Made by a program: the position numbers and the translations under genes. From Acytostelium subglobosum LB1 (taxonomy: Eukaryota > Evosea > Eumycetozoa > Acytosteliales > Acytosteliaceae), in assembly GCF_000787575.1 (NCBI RefSeq), contig NW_012236528.1, forward strand, positions 621,552-685,551: a stretch of 64,000 bases of DNA, read 5' to 3'. Below the pieces are notes generated by a model that was not told where the DNA came from, did no database searches, and saw only the letters and a program-made list of their open reading frames with translations. Of the stretch, positions 33,475-42,966 are shown one piece after another. Numbering within the stretch: position 1 is the first letter of the stretch; each line of letters starts with the position of its first letter.

Positions 33475-36400
33475 CTAGACATATGCTGATGTGACGAATT
33501 CATTGACGATCTCATCCTCTGACTTGACAGTGAGCTCTACGTCTGTGTTCTGTCCATTGCCATCGATCTTCATCCTGGCACGCACCAGAACACTGACTCC
33601 ATTGACAAAGCGTCCAGACAGATAGAGAATGTGCTTGTTGGCCTTGGGCTGTGCAACCTCGGACTTCTCGCATGGCGCCATCGACAGCGTCTTGATGAGC
33701 TCCTTGATGGCGTCGTCGATGGTCTTGATCGTCACGAGCTGGAAGGTCTGCACCGATTGGATTTCCTCGGGCAGACGCTTCCACTCCTCCTGGAAGTTGG
33801 GACACATCGCGCGCTGCATATAATCCTTGGGCAGCAGCTCCAAGTCCTCGATCTTGTACTGCTCGTCAAAGCCTCCGTCGTCGGGCTCGCCAGTCGATGG
33901 GTCGATCTCGCGCACCTTGAACTTGAGTGTGTTAGCAAAGGCCAGTGTCGGAGTTGCATCGGGTGGGATGCGGATGGCGACGTAGGACGATGCGGGGTCG
34001 CCATAGGGCAGAGAGTCCACAGGCAGGTAGCACTCGAGCTTCACCAGCTTGGGGTTGGATGGTACCATCTTGACAAAGACGTTCTCCAACAGCTGATCGT
34101 TGAGTGTGTTGGTGATGTTGAACTGGAAGACGATGTGCTCGGCAAAGATGTGCTTGACGCAGTTGACCACGTACTCGGTCTCAGTCTCGGTGAGCTCGAC
34201 AAACTCGCTGGACTTGAGCAGCTTGCCATAGGCGGCAAACTGTGGGATGGCCGACAGCTGGGAGGCGTAGCTCTCCTGTGCCGATACCTTTTCCTGTTGC
34301 TGTGACTGCATCTTTGGTGTGGATGGACCACTCGCTTGCTGCTGCTTGGTTGGTGCTGACTTGTCGCCCATCACTGGGGACACGACCTCAATCACCGTCG
34401 ACACCTTGGTGATGTCGAATGGCTCTGCTGATGGCGACTCGACGTAGGCCTCCAATGAGCGTTGGAGGTTTGCAAGAGGCACGGGGATGTCATCCATCAG
34501 CAACTTGTTGAGCAGCTTGACGTTGTCACTCTTGAGCAGTGCCAGGTAGAGCGTGGCTCTGTCACGGACCTCATCGTCCTCGTCCTGCAGACAGCGCTGA
34601 ATCAAGATGATGATCTTGTGTCTCATTGGCTCAAAGAGCAGTCCAAACTTGGCCAGCGAGGAGACGGCGGCAGCACGAATCGTGCCGCTGTCCAGCGATA
34701 TTCTGTTGAAGATGTAACGAATGTACTTTGATGGTGACGATGTCAAAGGGCCTTCCTGGCCCAGCAAGTGAAGGATCTGGACCGACAAGTCTGGATACTC
34801 GCAATCCTCGATAAAGTCACAAAGCTCATTCAAGGCTAGAGTGATTGAATGAAGTCAGTTAGTCGCGATGTGAATAAGGTCAGCCTTGCGTGGCGTGATG
34901 ATGTCACATAACATACCAATCTCCTTGGACTCTGGGATATGATTTACAACATTGAGAATGGCATCGAGAGTCTTCTGCTTGAGTTGGAGTGATCCTTCGT
35001 CGCGAAGAATCTTGTTGAGGAACAGGATCAAGTGCTTGTACTTCTTGGGGAACTTGATGCTGAGCATTGTGATCGACTCGACCACAACAACCTTGAACTC
35101 ATCATTGATGTCGCCCAAGAAGTTAGTAATCTGTTTAATCAATCTCTCTACATTGGATTCATTGCCAATCTGATCGTCATTGGATGGATGGATGGATGGG
35201 AGTGTGAGTGGATGTGATGGGCCAGGAAGGACGGATGATGGACTTAACATAACATACCTTAAGCAGTGTGGTGATTGCGAGTGTAGCAATGCTTCTGTTG
35301 GAGTCTGTGATGAGGTTCTCCATGTCGAGGTTGCATGGAACAACTGCGACTGGATTGGTCTGTGCAAGTTTGTTGAGTGTACGTACGGCGGCAAAGCGAA
35401 GCGTTGGCTTGGATGAGCTCAAGAACAACTGGAGCACGCCCACTGCCGATGTGAGCTCCTTGAGTGAGGAGTTCTTGAGTGAGCATACCGAGCGGGCTGC
35501 TTCATAAGCGACCATTTCGTTCCTATCTCTCAGACGACTCTCAATATAGTCATAGAATGTACGGTCACTACAGTGGCAAAGAGTTAGCATGTGATTGATG
35601 TGATTGGATGTGATGTACATACTCTGTGTTGGTCTCTTCGATCACTTCGACAGCACAACGAATGAGATAGCATTGAGCATATGGTGATCTTAATGATCCA
35701 CGGATGAGTGAGCTGACCAGCTTGGTAACGGCCAGACGATCATGCTGCTTGATACGGTGCAGAAGAGCGAGTGCATGGTATTGGACCATGTTGGATTTGT
35801 TTGAGATGGCCTCCTGTACCTCGTTGGCCCATCGCTTGACAGTCTCTGGACTGACCTTGAGCAAGTGAATGCTGGATACCAATGCCGCAGACGATACATG
35901 TGGATCCTTCTCGACAATCGACTGCTTGAAATGTCTCTCAACCTGTGGCAGTGATGATGCCTGTAATGTATTATGGTCGACCATCAGTACCTGCTGTTGT
36001 TGTTGTCATTGCTGTGCTGTGGATGATCAACTTACATCAATAATCTTACAAAGTACTCTAATGGCATTGGCACGATATAGTTCGATCTTGTGCGACATAT
36101 CCTTGATGAGTGAACTGGTGACGATGATGGCGTCCTGTGAGATGGTGGAGAACTCCTTGAGCAACAGATAGGTCATTCTACGCAATGGTATATCCTTTGA
36201 TTGGAACAACTTTGTCGCAGCAAAGAATATATCAGTTGCCTCTGTCTTTGTGAATGTATCTCCACGTGACAACAGATACAAGAACTTTGAAATAACCAAC
36301 GCGCACTGTCTTGGTTGCAACTGTGTATCATTGAATGCTCTCTTCTCTTGAACTACCTGTCCCTTGTCCAAATTCTCGAATGGGAACTCTGTACATATAT

Positions 36401-36519
36401 ACAATAATAGTATTGTCAATATAACCTGTTGTACCTGATGTTGATTGATTGATTGATTGAATGATTGATCGCGATCACATACCATACTCATCGTCATCTT
36501 TCTTTTCAAACCTGTTCAT
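33475..36519 (-). CDS. copG: Coatomer subunit gamma (COPI coat)
   Basis: Six minus-strand exons, 36483-36519, 36036-36388, 35623-35960, 35258-35567, 34917-35169 and 33475-34835, join in phase, giving about 883 residues, the usual family length. The N-terminal alpha-solenoid is evident ([63 protein letters not shown]). A Ser/Gln-rich linker follows near residue 610, then the C-terminal appendage with [15 protein letters not shown] and a beta-sandwich and platform. Gamma-COP is part of the coat that drives Golgi-to-ER and intra-Golgi transport and binds cargo and Arf GAPs. All introns are short and one holds a (ATTG)n repeat. Identification is secure. Confidence 0.95.
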
Positions 36520-36878: not shown

Positions 36879-39800
36879 TTACATCATCACACCACTGGTC
36901 TTGATCTCCTCCAATAGTACATTGTGTATCTGTTGTAGGTCTAGGTTCTCACCTTTGAGTGCGCCAATCTCAAGTTGTTTGTTCTCCAGGTCTTGTTGAG
37001 TGGTGGTCAACTGCTCGTTGAGTGTCTGCACCTCAGCCTCCATCTCATTGAGTCGACCGATGAGTTGGTCACTGTTCTCCTTGAAGCGTGTGATGTTCTC
37101 TCCATTGTTGATCTCCAAATCCTTCTTCTCCTTCTCAAGCTGGACGATGGCCTCATCCTTGGTGCGCAGTAGATGGTCACAATGCTCCCTGTACTCCTTG
37201 TATTGCTGCTCGGCTTCGGTCATCTTCTTGGTGAGCTCCTCTTGTGAGTTGATCATCTTCATGTTGATCTCGGTGGTGATGCTCGTCTCAAACATCTGGC
37301 TCTCGAGTTGTGCCACGCGATTGGCGCTCTCTTTCTCGATCTGCTTCATCAGCTGTAGCTGCTTCTTCAGCTCGGCAATCTCTGAGTCCTTATCGGCCAT
37401 CTCCTTGTCCCGCAGCGCCTTCTCCCTCTGCGCCTTTGCCGCAGGCACGTAAATCTCTGTGGTCTCGTCCGATGTTGGTTCGACTGGCGGGGCCTTTGTG
37501 GCTGCCCCGCCTCTATAGATGACTGATCCCTGGTCTGAGCCCACGTCCACATCGTCAACCTCAACATCAGCGTCAACGTTGGCAGCATTGATATCGGGTT
37601 GGGCCTGTCCAGTGAGGACTATCCTCGAGCATAGTAGCTCACCGATGGTGTCGCGCTTGGACCACTCATGGTGGACGGCAAGAACATTTCCAGTCTGTCT
37701 CGGCAGGAACTTGTGCAGCACATTGTCAATGCGTTCATTGATCATGGGCACAAAGTATTTGGGACGCACGGAGGACTTCTCAAACATGTCCCTAAACTCA
37801 AGCTCCATGCCAATGAGATCGTTGTACTCGATGGCCGTTTGCGTTTGGCGACGGAGGTAGTTGGCCTTGAAGGCGGCGCGGCGTTGCAGCTCGGCCTTGC
37901 ACAGGTCATAGTAGTCTGGTATGCGGTTAAGCTCGTCTATGACCTCCTTGGCATCGGACAGGTGGCTGTGGACGCCGCCCAGATACGAGACTGACTTGAT
38001 GAGGTCGTTGGTGTAGTTCTGCAGGCTGAGAACGGTCGAGCCGAGGCCAGCAGTGATCTCTTGGAATGTTTCGCAGACCTTGTCAAAGTGGTCGTTGCTC
38101 TCCTGAAGCGTTGAACGAGTCGTCAGGATGAATCCAATGTCGCTGTCCTGATTATCATTGTTCATTGACACCAGTTTGCCATTGATCTTCTTGTGCTCTG
38201 TTGTTAGTTCCACCATCTTCTTGACAGTTTGGGAGAATCTTTATGTTGGTGCGTGTAATGGAATGCATTGGTTAGTGACATGTCCAGACTTTGTTGAACA
38301 ACGACAACAACAATGTGATGATAGTTTACACTTTGGAGAAGTCTTGAGTAACTTGATTGTCAACTTGGCTTGAGCTTTGGATGAAATTGGCATAGTGTGT
38401 CAAGTTCTGATCAATGAATGATCGAATAAACAATGGAAGGTAGTCAATAAGTAACTCATTAGTGTCCTCTCCATTCTCATCGAAATTCCTAAGTTGTTTG
38501 ATCTATTTTGTAGTCATTGATTGATTGATGTTGATTGATTGAGTGAGTACGTAATGTCATCTGTAATGGATCAACTGGAACATACCTTATCACATGTACT
38601 CCTATTTGATTGGAACACTTTGGAGAGTTCATCCTGGCTGTTTACCAACTTCTTCAAGTCTACATTGTTGCCAAGTACTCCACGAACCTGTGATTGATAA
38701 TAGTCTCGCAGCAGTATGCAGTAACTGTTCAACTCGTTCGCCTTCCTCAACAACTCATTCAAGTATCTAAGTATCTTCTCCGAGTCCTCTTGCTTCTCCT
38801 AAATGATTGATTAATTGATTGATTATGTATTAGGAATTATTCCATTGACAACTCGTTCCTCCAACAGATACTTACAAACTCTGCTTTGATCTGATTGACC
38901 AATGTTGATTGAATGTCGCCATAATCCCTCACACTTGGTACATCTTCGTGCTTTGTATTGGTGTGGCGACTGGTCAGACTTCCAAGCTCGCTGATCTTTA
39001 GTGTGACCGTCATCTTGTAGAGGTCAATAAGGTAGACACGATCCTGTTTATAAGTATCCGAAGTGTTAGTAATGATGAGATAATCCAGCCGGCTGTGTAG
39101 TATCCAATCTACTTACAATTGTATATAATGGTCGAGATGGTGTCACGTTGAGTGGATGTAGACTGTCCGAATCAAAGTATGTCACCAATATCAGCTGATC
39201 CTTGAGCGACAGCTTATACTTGCTCTCAATGTTGCATGCTGTGAAGTTCTTGTGGCTATGGGGGGATGGATGTCAGCGACTCACTCAAACATACTCAAAG
39301 TACAGTATACATACTAGATCTGATAGACATCGTTGAGAGTGATGACATCTTTGTGCTGTCCCAATTGTATGTCCAGGTAGACGATCTTGCTCATGACCCA
39401 GTCGGAGCGAATGATGTCGGCCATCGTGATTCGCTTTGAAGGGTCTGGCTCGACCATCCTCAGGAGCAGCTCCCTGTACTCATCGGTACATCTATCGGCG
39501 GGCAGATCATTGATGCCCTGGACATAGTTGATGTTGTCCGATGGCTCTGGAAGTGAGATATGATAGAACAATGCACCCATTGCATAAATGTCCACTGACG
39601 ATGTATATCCGTATGGCAAGAATTGTTCTGGTGCCATGTACTTGAATGATCCAACACGTGACTGTGCCATATCATCGCCATTGATCGCTTTAGACAATCC
39701 AAAGTCTGACACTATTGATTGATTGATCGATGAGTGAGGGTCGTGGTCATCAATTGTTCGCGAACAATGAAACATACATTTGAAGACTAGTCTCTTCTTG

Positions 39801-40518
39801 TTTACAATGTTCAGGAGGATGTTGCCTGGCTTGATGTCTCGATGAATGATGTTCTTATCATGCAAGAACTGTAATGCAGAGAGTACTTGAAGGAAGATAA
39901 TCTTGAGTGTGCTCTCATCCATCTTGCCTCTGTTTGTATGATAGAACTCATACAATGTCTTGCTATTGCAGTACTCAAATACATAGGTATACTTGTCCTA
40001 TTATATATTGAATAATGTAATGTAATGTGTCAATCAAATGTGAAGTTGGATGGCCATGATAGTGTAACGGGTGATATGAGAGAACCTACAAGTATATCAT
40101 GGATTGCAACAATGTGTGGATGTGCAATTCCTTGTAGACTGGCTAGAAGAGAGTGCTCGCGATCAATGTAGGGCTTTAACTCTTTGCTGTCATAAGCTTC
40201 ACGCTTCAACAGTTTGACTGCGTATAGCTTGTTGGTGGCAGGGTCGACTGCTTTATAAACGTAACCAAATGCGCCTCTGCCCAGCTCATCCTGTCGAATG
40301 TATGTAGTCGCATTAAGAACAGCAGTCGATGATGATGAGTCTGTTGTCTGTGACGAAGAAGATGAAGATGATGATGCCAGTGGACCTGTCCTTCTAAAGA
40401 AAGGTGAATGAGCTTCATTGACATGCTGTTTCTCTGGTGTTGATCTTTGAGGTGATGATGATGGTGATGGTGACTGAGGTGTACCATTCTGGTTCCTTGT
40501 CCATTTGAATATATTCAT
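36879..40518 (-). CDS. Protein kinase fused to ubiquitin-like and ATG11/FIP200-like (or TBK1-like) scaffold
   Basis: Eight minus-strand exons, 40090-40518, 39778-39997, 39315-39711, 39117-39255, 38876-39043, 38586-38798, 38330-38502 and 36879-38238, join in phase for about 1,032 residues. Residues about 74-330 are a complete kinase: GRGAFGYV loop, AVKLL Lys, HRDIKPGN, SDFG and MAPEQ. From KIVYLDIQLGQ (about 330) to VYLIDLYKM (about 405) a ubiquitin-like fold is suggested. A helical region follows with LNRIPDYYDLC and ELQRRAAFKANYL (about 680-700), resembling the Atg17-like region of ATG11/FIP200, then a coiled coil to the end. Kinase, ubiquitin-like, helical and coiled-coil order is also that of TBK1/IKK-epsilon. 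A TAG appears at 39314-39316 only if intron 3 is retained; spliced, the codon is TA|C. Orthology is uncertain. Confidence 0.75.
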
Positions 40519-40682
40519 TCTTATGTCTATGAATACATATATAACTATACAGATACAGATAATAATAATAAATAGTAGAGAATAATACAAGGTGGTGAAG
40601 ATGTAGTTGTGTTTTTGCTTTGCACGTGTGGTTTTTGAGTTTTTGTCTCAAGTAAGTGGGAACTTGAAAGTATGAAGTGTGA

Positions 40683-40724
40683 GGGTTAGGGCAAGGGTAA
40701 GGGTTAGGGTTAGGGTAAGGGAAG
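40683..40724 (-). repeat. Telomere-like GGGTTA/GGGTAA array upstream of kinase gene
   Basis: Plus strand reads GGGTTAGGGCAAGGGTAAGG and continues with further GGGTTA units; on the sense strand of the kinase gene it is C-rich (CCCTAA/CCCTTA). It begins 165 bp upstream of the kinase start codon and is flanked by unrelated genes, so it is interstitial. Confidence 0.7.
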
Positions 40725-40756: not shown

Positions 40757-42966
40757 TTAATCAAGATTGAGCATTAGATTGTATTCTAGATGTGTGGAGA
40801 GTAGTGACTCCAATTTGTCACGTGATGTAATTGTTCCACCTTCAAGCCGATGATTGAGTACTAATATATCACATTGTTGTTGTTGTTGATTATTATTACT
40901 ATTACATTGTCCAATCTTCCTAATATATAACTTTTGGAATAATCCATCTACTAATATAAGGCTATTAACCATGGAGTCCATTAACCATTTTACCCATTCT
41001 TTGCTCTTGAACATGAATTTGGTTGGTGGATAGATGTTGTAGTATATAGTCAATTGCTTCAGGTTGAGATTGATGTTTGGCAATGTCTTGATATCACCGC
41101 TCAATATTAGTTCGATTGGATGTTTGGCAACTGCGGCCATGAAACGATCGCATGACTCATCCACCACACGGTTTGAAGAGCTGCGCAGCCAAGAAGTAAA
41201 GAATGATGTGATCTTGCCTGTAACTGTTGAGCCCATTGAGTTTGACCCGATCATCCAATTGTACAAATGATCGAGAGTGAACTTGTCTGTGTAGGTCTTG
41301 AAGAAGTCTGTTGCAATGACAAGAATGATTGTTGTAGTGCTCACGACGGATCCATGGCCACTACCACCATCGTGATCAATGGAGAATGTCAGATTGGTGA
41401 GTGACACGGGTAGAATAGACGCTGAGAGTGAATGAGTATACTTGCTGCCAAGGGTCAACTTGGCTAGACTGGCTGGGAGTGAGCCCTGTTCAAACTTTCT
41501 CTTGTAGTTATGACCGAGGACGAGCTCAGTGAGTGAAGGTGGAAGGACGCCAGGTGGAAGTGGCATGTCGAACCCAACTCCAAACCTGAGCACTGTGAGC
41601 GATGAGGGCAGTGATCTAATCTCAATCGATTTGTTGAACTGTGCGCCTAAGTCGAGGCTCTTTAACGAGTCTGGTAGGATGTCTGGCGGCAGAGGATGAT
41701 CATACATGCCAAGCCTCAACTCTGTGATTGTGTCAGGCAGCTCTCCAACATGTAGTGGTTGATTGAACATCTCCAACACCAGCTTTGTGACGCCTGGCGG
41801 TATGGCGCCAACAGAGAGTGCGTTGTTGAACTGGAAACTGAACAATAGTTTGGTTAATGATCTAGGGAATGTTTCAGGTGTCACAGGTTGATCGAATCTC
41901 TTCATCAACTTTAGAAATACAAGAGTGGATGGTAGTGATCGAGGTATGATGTGGCTCACGTTCATGGACAGCTCCTTCAGGCCCTCGGGGAGCACTCCGC
42001 GAGCCAGGGTTTGATCAAAGTTGTCCCCCAAAGAAAGGATGCTAAGTGAGTTGGGCAGCACACCAATGTCCAGTGGCTGATTGAACTGTCGACCGAATAT
42101 AATGTTTGTGATACTGTGTGGCAACACGTCTGGCATGATTGGGCTGTTGTAGTTCTTGCCAAAGATCAGCTTCCTCAGGGACTCGGGCAGGACACCCTGA
42201 CCAATCGGAAGGTTATACGACATGCCCAGAGATATGATCTTCAGTGACTGTGGCAGAACGCCAATGTCGATGGGCTGGTTGAAGTTGGCGCCCATCAACA
42301 GACTGGTAAGGCTCGATGGCAAGGCATTTGGTGGCAGTCTCTGGTTGTACCCATCACCAAGTATCAAGATGATGAGGTTCGGAGGCAACACCGGTTGTCC
42401 ATTGTAGGACATTAGGTCATAGCTCCTATTGAATCTAATCATCTTTAAAGTGTCTGGCAGTATACCTGGCGATATATATTCAACTTCGCCGAAATATATA
42501 CATTCACATGACTTCACAGACGAGGATGACGAAGATGATTGATCGCTATTACTAAGCTGTCGTCTATACTCATCGAAAGTAATATGAGTCATTGTCTCTG
42601 GGGTCGTTGTCATTCTCAACATTGATCCGACCTTAAGATCCACAACTACGTAGGTAGGTACGTTGTAAGTTGAGTTGGGTTGAGATGAGTTGTTAACAAC
42701 ATTCATTCATTCATTCTCGATAATGACTCCAATGACGTACCCAACACATCTTTATCAATCTGTTTCTTGATAAGATCACGATACATTGGAATCAGTCGCT
42801 GTGTCTGAGAGAAGTAATTGGAGTATTCAAAGGTGATGTATTGTTGTCGCTGACCATACATTCTCCTACAAGTCAATGACAAACAGATCACATCCACCGG
42901 ATTGTCGCCCAACATCCTAACAACATGCTTCAACAGCACATTACTAAGATCATTCAATGATTGCAT
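40757..42966 (-). CDS. F-box / FNIP-repeat protein
   Basis: Two exons, 42741-42966 and 40757-42645, joined in phase 1, give about 704 residues. The intron (42646-42740) has a GTACGT donor and a CTACGTAG acceptor. Without it the sequence looks like two overlapping frames at GAATGAATGAATG, which would split an F-box from its repeats. Residues about 5-60 (NDLSNVLLKHVVRMLG, CLSLTCRRMYGQRQQYITF) are F-box-like. About a dozen FNIP repeats of roughly 22 residues follow, with the pattern FNQPLDIGVLPNSLSILSLG. A divergent C-terminal domain ends the protein. FNIP repeats form LRR-like solenoids and are hugely expanded in dictyostelids; a role as SCF substrate receptor is inferred from the F-box only. 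Confidence 0.85.

Follow-up and report, generated by a model that had tools for sequence, protein, structure and literature searches.

A putative TBK1/IKK-type kinase family with a FIP200-like scaffold in Acytostelium subglobosum

Results

A kinase and a predicted scaffold are encoded by one gene

The stretch analysed here (the window) comprises 64,000 nucleotides of Acytostelium subglobosum LB1, positions 621,552 to 685,551 of contig NW_012236528.1 in the assembly GCF_000787575.1. This report concerns the gene at positions 36879..40518 of the window, on the minus strand, which encodes a protein kinase continued by a ubiquitin-like domain and a predicted helical scaffold. We designated it K1, and its two paralogues in the same genome (30.7 Mb in 56 contigs, all searched) K2 and K3. 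The eight exons of K1, read on the minus strand from 40518 to 36879, make up a single reading frame of 1,032 amino acids, closed by the stop codon TAA. All seven introns begin with GT and end with AG, and their lengths are 59-92 nucleotides. A preliminary description of the window, made from its letters, had proposed a single in-phase protein here, and the coordinates, strand, exon count and length that it gave were all correct. The features are as follows.

40518-40090, 39997-39778, 39711-39315, 39255-39117, 39043-38876, 38798-38586, 38502-38330 and 38238-36879, minus strand: coding exons 1 to 8 of K1
39395..40302, minus strand: protein kinase domain, residues 73-322, exons 1-3, from Pfam and motifs
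39005..39391, minus strand: ubiquitin-like domain, residues 324-408, exons 3-5, abutting the kinase, from a match to the FIP200 profile
39256..39314, minus strand: phase-2 intron inside the ubiquitin-like domain, at a site common to K2 and both FIP200-type genes
39044..39116, minus strand: phase-0 intron ahead of the last predicted ubiquitin-like strand, from comparison with K2, K3 and the FIP200-type genes
37932..39004, minus strand: predicted helical scaffold, residues 409-682, exons 5-8, from conservation among the paralogues
37701..37931, minus strand: Atg17/FIP200-type block, residues 683-759, from hhalign with K1-3 and Pfam ATG17_like
37434..37700, minus strand: acidic low-complexity linker, residues 760-848, from the sequence
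36882..37433, minus strand: C-terminal coiled-coil-like region, residues 849-1032, by eye

The front of the protein is a complete kinase, as had been described. Residues 74-322 matched Pfam Pkinase with an expectation value (E) of 1.5e-52, and all of the key motifs were present: the P-loop (80-85), Lys102 in YAVK (VAIK-type), HRD (195-197), DFG (219-221) and APE (243-245). The activation loop carries Ser234. The Atg17/FIP200-type block contains IPDYYDLCKAELQRRAAF, E..FRDMF and FLP. The Atg11/Claw domain (PF10377) gave no match in the K1 protein in a Pfam search up to E 10, and the C-terminal MIT/EAT domain of Atg1/ULK (PF12063) was not among its Pfam matches; a genome search with PF12063 was silent in all genomes including the controls, and therefore says nothing about Atg1 itself.

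Two paralogues keep the same order of domains

When the genome was searched with the K1 tail alone, K1 itself and two further kinase loci were recovered, K2 (C26:281629-285157, minus strand) and K3 (C49:317818-321195, plus strand), both on other contigs than K1. A further match to the tail at C38:566015 (E 8.2e-5) was dropped, as it lies in an unrelated-looking frame that resembles, by eye, a uracil-DNA-glycosylase/FHA-like protein. The spliced models of K2 and K3 have 943 and 981 amino acids, respectively, with the domain order of K1 throughout. The kinase domains are 49% (K2) and 37% (K3) identical to that of K1, and the tails 33% and 25%. The first two introns of the kinase and the one before the last ubiquitin-like strand are common to the three genes, and the further exon joins of K1 are also present in K2.

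A gene-model artefact, in which the kinase and the scaffold would be two neighbouring genes, can be practically dismissed. The paralogues keep the same order on two other contigs, every join in K1 is in phase, and a single exon of K3 (C49:318483-319021) covers the C-lobe of the kinase together with the ubiquitin-like domain, with no intron between them, which argues that the join of kinase and scaffold is real. The exon joins of K1, including that across 39256-39314, are thus backed by the paralogues as far as sequence allows. The single natural fusion protein envisaged in the preliminary description therefore stands in that the kinase, the ubiquitin-like domain and the Atg17-like block lie in one chain, but it is not a one-off, since there are three paralogues.

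A block of the scaffold is related to FIP200/ATG11

For profile comparisons by hhalign, FIP200 N-termini were represented by the two FIP200-type proteins of this genome and human FIP200, whose letters were checked against 8soi. The profile of the K1-3 tails scored 44.2 against them (E 6.1e-5), and the alignment fell in the block IPDYYDLCKAELQRRAAF..E..FRDMF..FLP. None of 300 column shuffles of the tail profile reached this score (maximum 25.4), and the reversed profile scored 18.1. As a yardstick, human FIP200 against the two amoeba FIP200s, which are true homologues, scored 33.9 when tested likewise, with the alignment in this block too. The tails matched human FIP200 alone with E 0.0013 and the two amoeba proteins alone with E 0.0021, and the scores stayed at 36.0-40.1 when one paralogue at a time was left out. 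Two FIP200 coiled-coil decoys scored 15.9 and 14.9 against the K tail. After removal of the block, the remainder of the tail profile scored 20.8 (E 0.086) and aligned only in the ubiquitin-like domain. In addition, Pfam ATG17_like matched the tail of K3 at profile positions 186-347 (E 3.4e-5). Judged from these comparisons, the Atg17-type block of K1-3 is related to FIP200/ATG11, and the likeness that had been noticed around this motif is borne out for the three paralogues taken together.

Several results weigh against homology of the scaffold as a whole or lower the value of single matches. Residues 409-682 had no significant match of their own to FIP200 in the profile comparison. Compared singly with FIP200, K1 scored 24.9, K2 30.1 and K3 22.6; K1 alone is not clear of the shuffles, so that the case for FIP200 is that of the three proteins together, and K1 alone as a single-sequence search gave no scaffold match. 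One control pair, the K coiled coil against a FIP200 coiled coil, scored 40.3, and scores between coiled coils therefore mean little. The ATG17_like match on K3 amounts to 23.9 bits, under the Pfam cut-off of 43. On a 135-residue piece of K1 the same model matched with E 0.041, ranking behind a V-SNARE match with E 0.015, and it was unlisted by Pfam for K2 and for the 438-residue tail of K1. A whole-genome scan with ATG17_like gave seven weak matches, all under the cut-off, headed by the two FIP200 genes, with C46:85629 third and K3 fourth; weak matches were also found in 8 of 14 control prokaryote genomes. Of the Pfam ATG11/Atg17 profiles proposed for a check, ATG17_like thus matched K3, below the cut-off, and PF10377 did not match K1. 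In a PDB search with the three-tail profile, FIP200 was third and fourth (E 0.29 and 0.49), below two viral spike constructs, and this ranking is not counted as proof.

These results bear on whether K1 could be an ordinary kinase that happens to carry a coiled-coil tail, its similarity to FIP200 being an artefact of composition. Residues 581-766 of K1, folded without an alignment, gave an all-helical model of low confidence (predicted local distance difference test, pLDDT, 55.7), and Foldseek with this model returned no match at E 0.001 among 392. Such a model, the coiled-coil pair at 40.3 and the score of K1 alone, about the level of the shuffles of the three-row profile, would fit such an artefact. 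The shuffles, the reversal, the two coil decoys and the leave-one-out runs speak against it, as do the ATG17_like match on K3 and the common intron site in the ubiquitin-like domain described below, and we regard this explanation as very improbable.

The ubiquitin-like domain matches FIP200 and shares an intron site with it

The ubiquitin-like segment of K1 had no ubiquitin-related Pfam match. The K1-3 profile, on the other hand, scored 20.4 against the ubiquitin-like domains of FIP200 (E 0.0036), a value reached by none of 200 column shuffles (maximum 16.8), and the segment is accordingly upheld as a ubiquitin-like domain of FIP200 type. Against the ubiquitin-like domains of TBK1 and IKKb the score was 12.7 and not significant, as shuffled profiles scored up to 20.1. 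FIP200 and IKKb matched each other in this domain with E 3.4e-5. The junction of kinase and ubiquitin-like domain in K has no linker at all, with the same spacing as in TBK1 and IKKb.

In both FIP200 genes, as in K2, the phase-2 intron lies in the codon 19 residues ahead of a conserved Gln; in K1, which has a one-residue insertion relative to K2, it lies 20 residues ahead. In K3 this intron is absent, either lost or never present. In K1-3 the phase-0 intron is four residues ahead of the Tyr aligned in the last strand, and in the FIP200 genes it is six residues ahead. If each domain is taken as 88 residues long with two introns, the chance of one exact intron coincidence is, by our own rough arithmetic, ~1.5%.

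The genome has separate FIP200-type genes

Two FIP200/ATG11-type genes were found elsewhere in the genome, L010 (G000:C47 from ~396217, plus strand) and L011 (G000:C55 from ~1748993, minus strand). Both encode a ubiquitin-like domain, an ATG17_like region (Pfam E 1.6e-19 and 2.2e-21), a coiled coil by eye and an Atg11/Claw match, and the two PF10377 matches of the genome are both outside K1. In the parts of Pan et al. (PMC7511232) used here, FIP200 proteins, including amoebozoan ones, are described with ubiquitin-like, Atg17-like and Atg11 domains, in agreement with what L010 and L011 encode. An ATG13 exon (G000:C15:29499-29690, minus strand; PF10033, E 2.8e-10) indicates that the Atg1 complex is present at least in part. 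K1 shares with FIP200/RB1CC1 and ATG11 the succession of a ubiquitin-like domain, an Atg17-like region and a coiled coil, as well as the intron site, but differs in its N-terminal kinase and in the absence of a C-terminal Atg11/Claw domain. Lacking the Claw, and with two FIP200 genes present elsewhere in the genome, K1 is not itself FIP200/ATG11. With Atg1/ULK, K1 has in common a kinase domain of similar general type; unlike Atg1/ULK it carries its own scaffold, and the MIT/EAT C-terminus was not found in it.

The presence of two such genes in A. subglobosum contrasts with the report on D. discoideum by Mesquita et al. (PMC4554924), in the consulted part of which the putative FIP200 and Atg17 failed to behave like functional homologues.

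The kinase domain is weakly placed with IKK/TBK1 in trees

In four kinase trees (28, 22, 18 and 22 rows), for which most of the human reference kinase sequences were entered by hand, the K kinases joined IKK/TBK1 every time. The support for this group (bootstrap/Shimodaira-Hasegawa-like approximate likelihood ratio test) was 74/90, 89/87, 82/82 and 77/85, none at the 95/80 mark, and the long stems of K and of the IKK pairs may attract each other in trees. All three paralogues have an activation-loop Ser at the position of TBK1 S172 (S172/S181 in TBK1/IKK kinases). The length of the activation loop is also found in other kinases and is not diagnostic. In the layout of an N-terminal kinase, a linkerless ubiquitin-like domain, a helical region and a C-terminal coiled region, K1 resembles TBK1, IKK-epsilon, IKK-alpha and IKK-beta, to which the Ser and the weak grouping in the trees may be added. 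It differs from them in that the TBK1 Pfam signatures are absent, in that its scaffold ends in the Atg17/FIP200-type block, which TBK1 and IKKb sequences do not match, and in its occurrence in an amoebozoan.

A number of results count against the assignment to TBK1/IKK. Kinase profile scores were 145 for ULK3, 141 for STK33, 141 for SNRK and 140 for SNF1, as compared with 104 for IKKb and 94 for TBK1, so that by score the kinase stands closest to ULK3 and CAMK/SNF1-type kinases. The best PDB match of the K1 kinase was ULK3, and TBK1 was not in the best 60 rows. A genome search with TBK1 as query gave 77 places at E 1e-8, with K1-3 not among them; the K1-3 kinases are split over exons in this search. 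Grouping of K with ULK1-3 was not rejected (p 0.207-0.217), although it was absent from the best trees. Pfam TBK1_ULD and TBK1_CCD1 did not match K1-3, and the K tails had no sequence match to the scaffolds of TBK1 (E 0.13) or IKKb (E 0.63); the ubiquitin-like score of 12.7 given above belongs here as well.

Whole-genome scans with TBK1_ULD and TBK1_CCD1 each returned a single weak match, outside K1-3 in both cases. Both were rejected: the frame at C47:351539 (L009 1465-2367) appears by eye to combine an N-terminal ubiquitin-like part with a von Willebrand A type part, and that at C54:439483 to be a neurofibromin/RasGAP-like protein.

With respect to the kinase phylogeny that had been proposed, the placement with IKK/TBK1 was found in four of four trees, but it is weak (bootstrap 74-89), and a grouping with ULK1-3 was not rejected. 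The early TBK1/IKK-type kinase named as the main alternative in the preliminary description retains the domain order and the weak tree placement and lacks the Pfam signatures of TBK1. Its opposition to a FIP200 fusion does not hold as an either/or. Likeness to each is found in K1, but the N-terminus of FIP200 and the scaffold of TBK1 are themselves structurally related, according to the portion of Shi et al. 2020 (PMC7337493) available to us.

The TBK1-like layout might have arisen by convergence. After duplication of a FIP200 gene, a ULK/CAMK-like kinase would then have been fused independently, in an amoeba ancestor, to the N-terminal part of one copy, and K1 would be no orthologue of TBK1. 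The order of the kinase scores, the match of the K tails to FIP200 and not to TBK1, the intron site held in common with the genome's own FIP200 genes and the failure of the tree test to reject K with ULK1-3 would all fit. Since TBK1 and IKK evolve fast, low scores would be expected anyway, and the uniform placement in the trees and the linkerless junction of IKK/TBK1 type oppose an independent fusion, which is the chief competing explanation and which we consider unlikely though not to be neglected. If K1 were instead a conventional TBK1/IKK orthologue, the likeness of its scaffold tip to FIP200 would be expected of all TBK1/IKK scaffolds, in line with the structural similarity in the cited portion of PMC7337493 and with the FIP200/IKKb match in the ubiquitin-like domain. 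That match, however, is confined to the ubiquitin-like domain, outside the Atg17-type block; the human TBK1 and IKKb scaffolds do not match the K tails, and the TBK1 Pfam models miss K1-3. A conventional orthologue is therefore improbable.

On balance, we favour, with somewhat more confidence than doubt, the reading that K1 is a TBK1/IKK-type kinase, one of three paralogues, whose scaffold would be homologous to the N-terminal half of FIP200/ATG11. The K family appears to be of TBK1/IKK type in architecture and is probably so in descent, with a FIP200-like scaffold; it is not a proven member.

Sequences next to the gene

On the 5' side of K1, on the same strand, an FNIP-repeat gene occupies 40757-42706 (Pfam E 6.3e-94, ten matched stretches); such repeats are associated with dictyostelids. 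On the other side K1 is adjoined by Adaptin_N exons (Pfam; 35568-36515, minus strand), by eye from a coatomer gamma-type gene. Upstream of K1, a degenerate telomere-like (TTAGGG) repeat lies at 40682-40723, with an exact GGGTTAGGGTTAGGG at 40701-40715. The telomere-like pattern with at most one mismatch occurs in 90+79 matches in the genome, overlaps counted, as compared with 14+10 for the reversed pattern; interstitial telomere-like repeats are thus scattered across the genome. A viral-contig scan gave no match.

Discussion

TBK1 is generally held to be activated by clustering. In K1, the scaffold and the coiled coil would make the protein a permanent dimer, with the ubiquitin-like domain packed against both kinase and scaffold. 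Such dimers might cluster on a target, that is, a damaged organelle, a bacterium or other autophagy cargo; clustering would turn the kinase on, and Ser234 of the activation loop would be phosphorylated between clustered dimers. Kinase and scaffold would then work as one molecule, whereas Atg1/ULK1 needs recruitment by FIP200. The expectation of a permanent dimer comes from two systems. In the part of PMC7337493 referred to above, the FIP200 N-terminus is a dimer with its C-terminal end at the dimer centre, and in that of PMC7511232, the main action of Atg11 in fission yeast is to dimerise Atg1, and a leucine zipper on Atg1 can substitute for Atg11; with such a scaffold built into the polypeptide itself, K1 should dimerise permanently. 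We infer an autophagy role for K1 from its scaffold alone.

In the literature searched, which did not extend to subscription journals, preprints or supplements, neither a kinase-FIP200 fusion nor an amoebozoan TBK1/IKK was found, and this is no proof of absence. The terms 'IKK' and 'TBK' appear nowhere in the consulted portion of the main text of Goldberg et al. (PMC1420674), who described the Dictyostelium kinome in 2006. A proposal from structural work, as given in the same part of PMC7337493, is that TBK1 resembles a kinase joined to the N-terminus of FIP200. It is conceivable, and we put it forward tentatively, that the K family is a surviving intermediate, TBK1/IKK having arisen by fusion of a kinase with a FIP200-type N-terminal scaffold before the split of animals and amoebozoans, the Atg17-type tip being retained by the amoeba copies and lost from animal TBK1/IKK.

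A natural kinase with a FIP200-matching scaffold, present in three copies, offers a concrete test of the origin of TBK1/IKK, and bears on whether autophagy kinases can be single molecules or complexes formed by recruitment. A kinase family holding part of the FIP200 scaffold may also bear on the puzzle of Dictyostelium FIP200 and Atg17, as far as the part of PMC4554924 cited above describes it. The design of the K family may reveal how TBK1 and IKK, kinases of immunity and autophagy in animals, came into being and, if the family is indeed a surviving intermediate, the autophagy role of TBK1 would predate its immune role.

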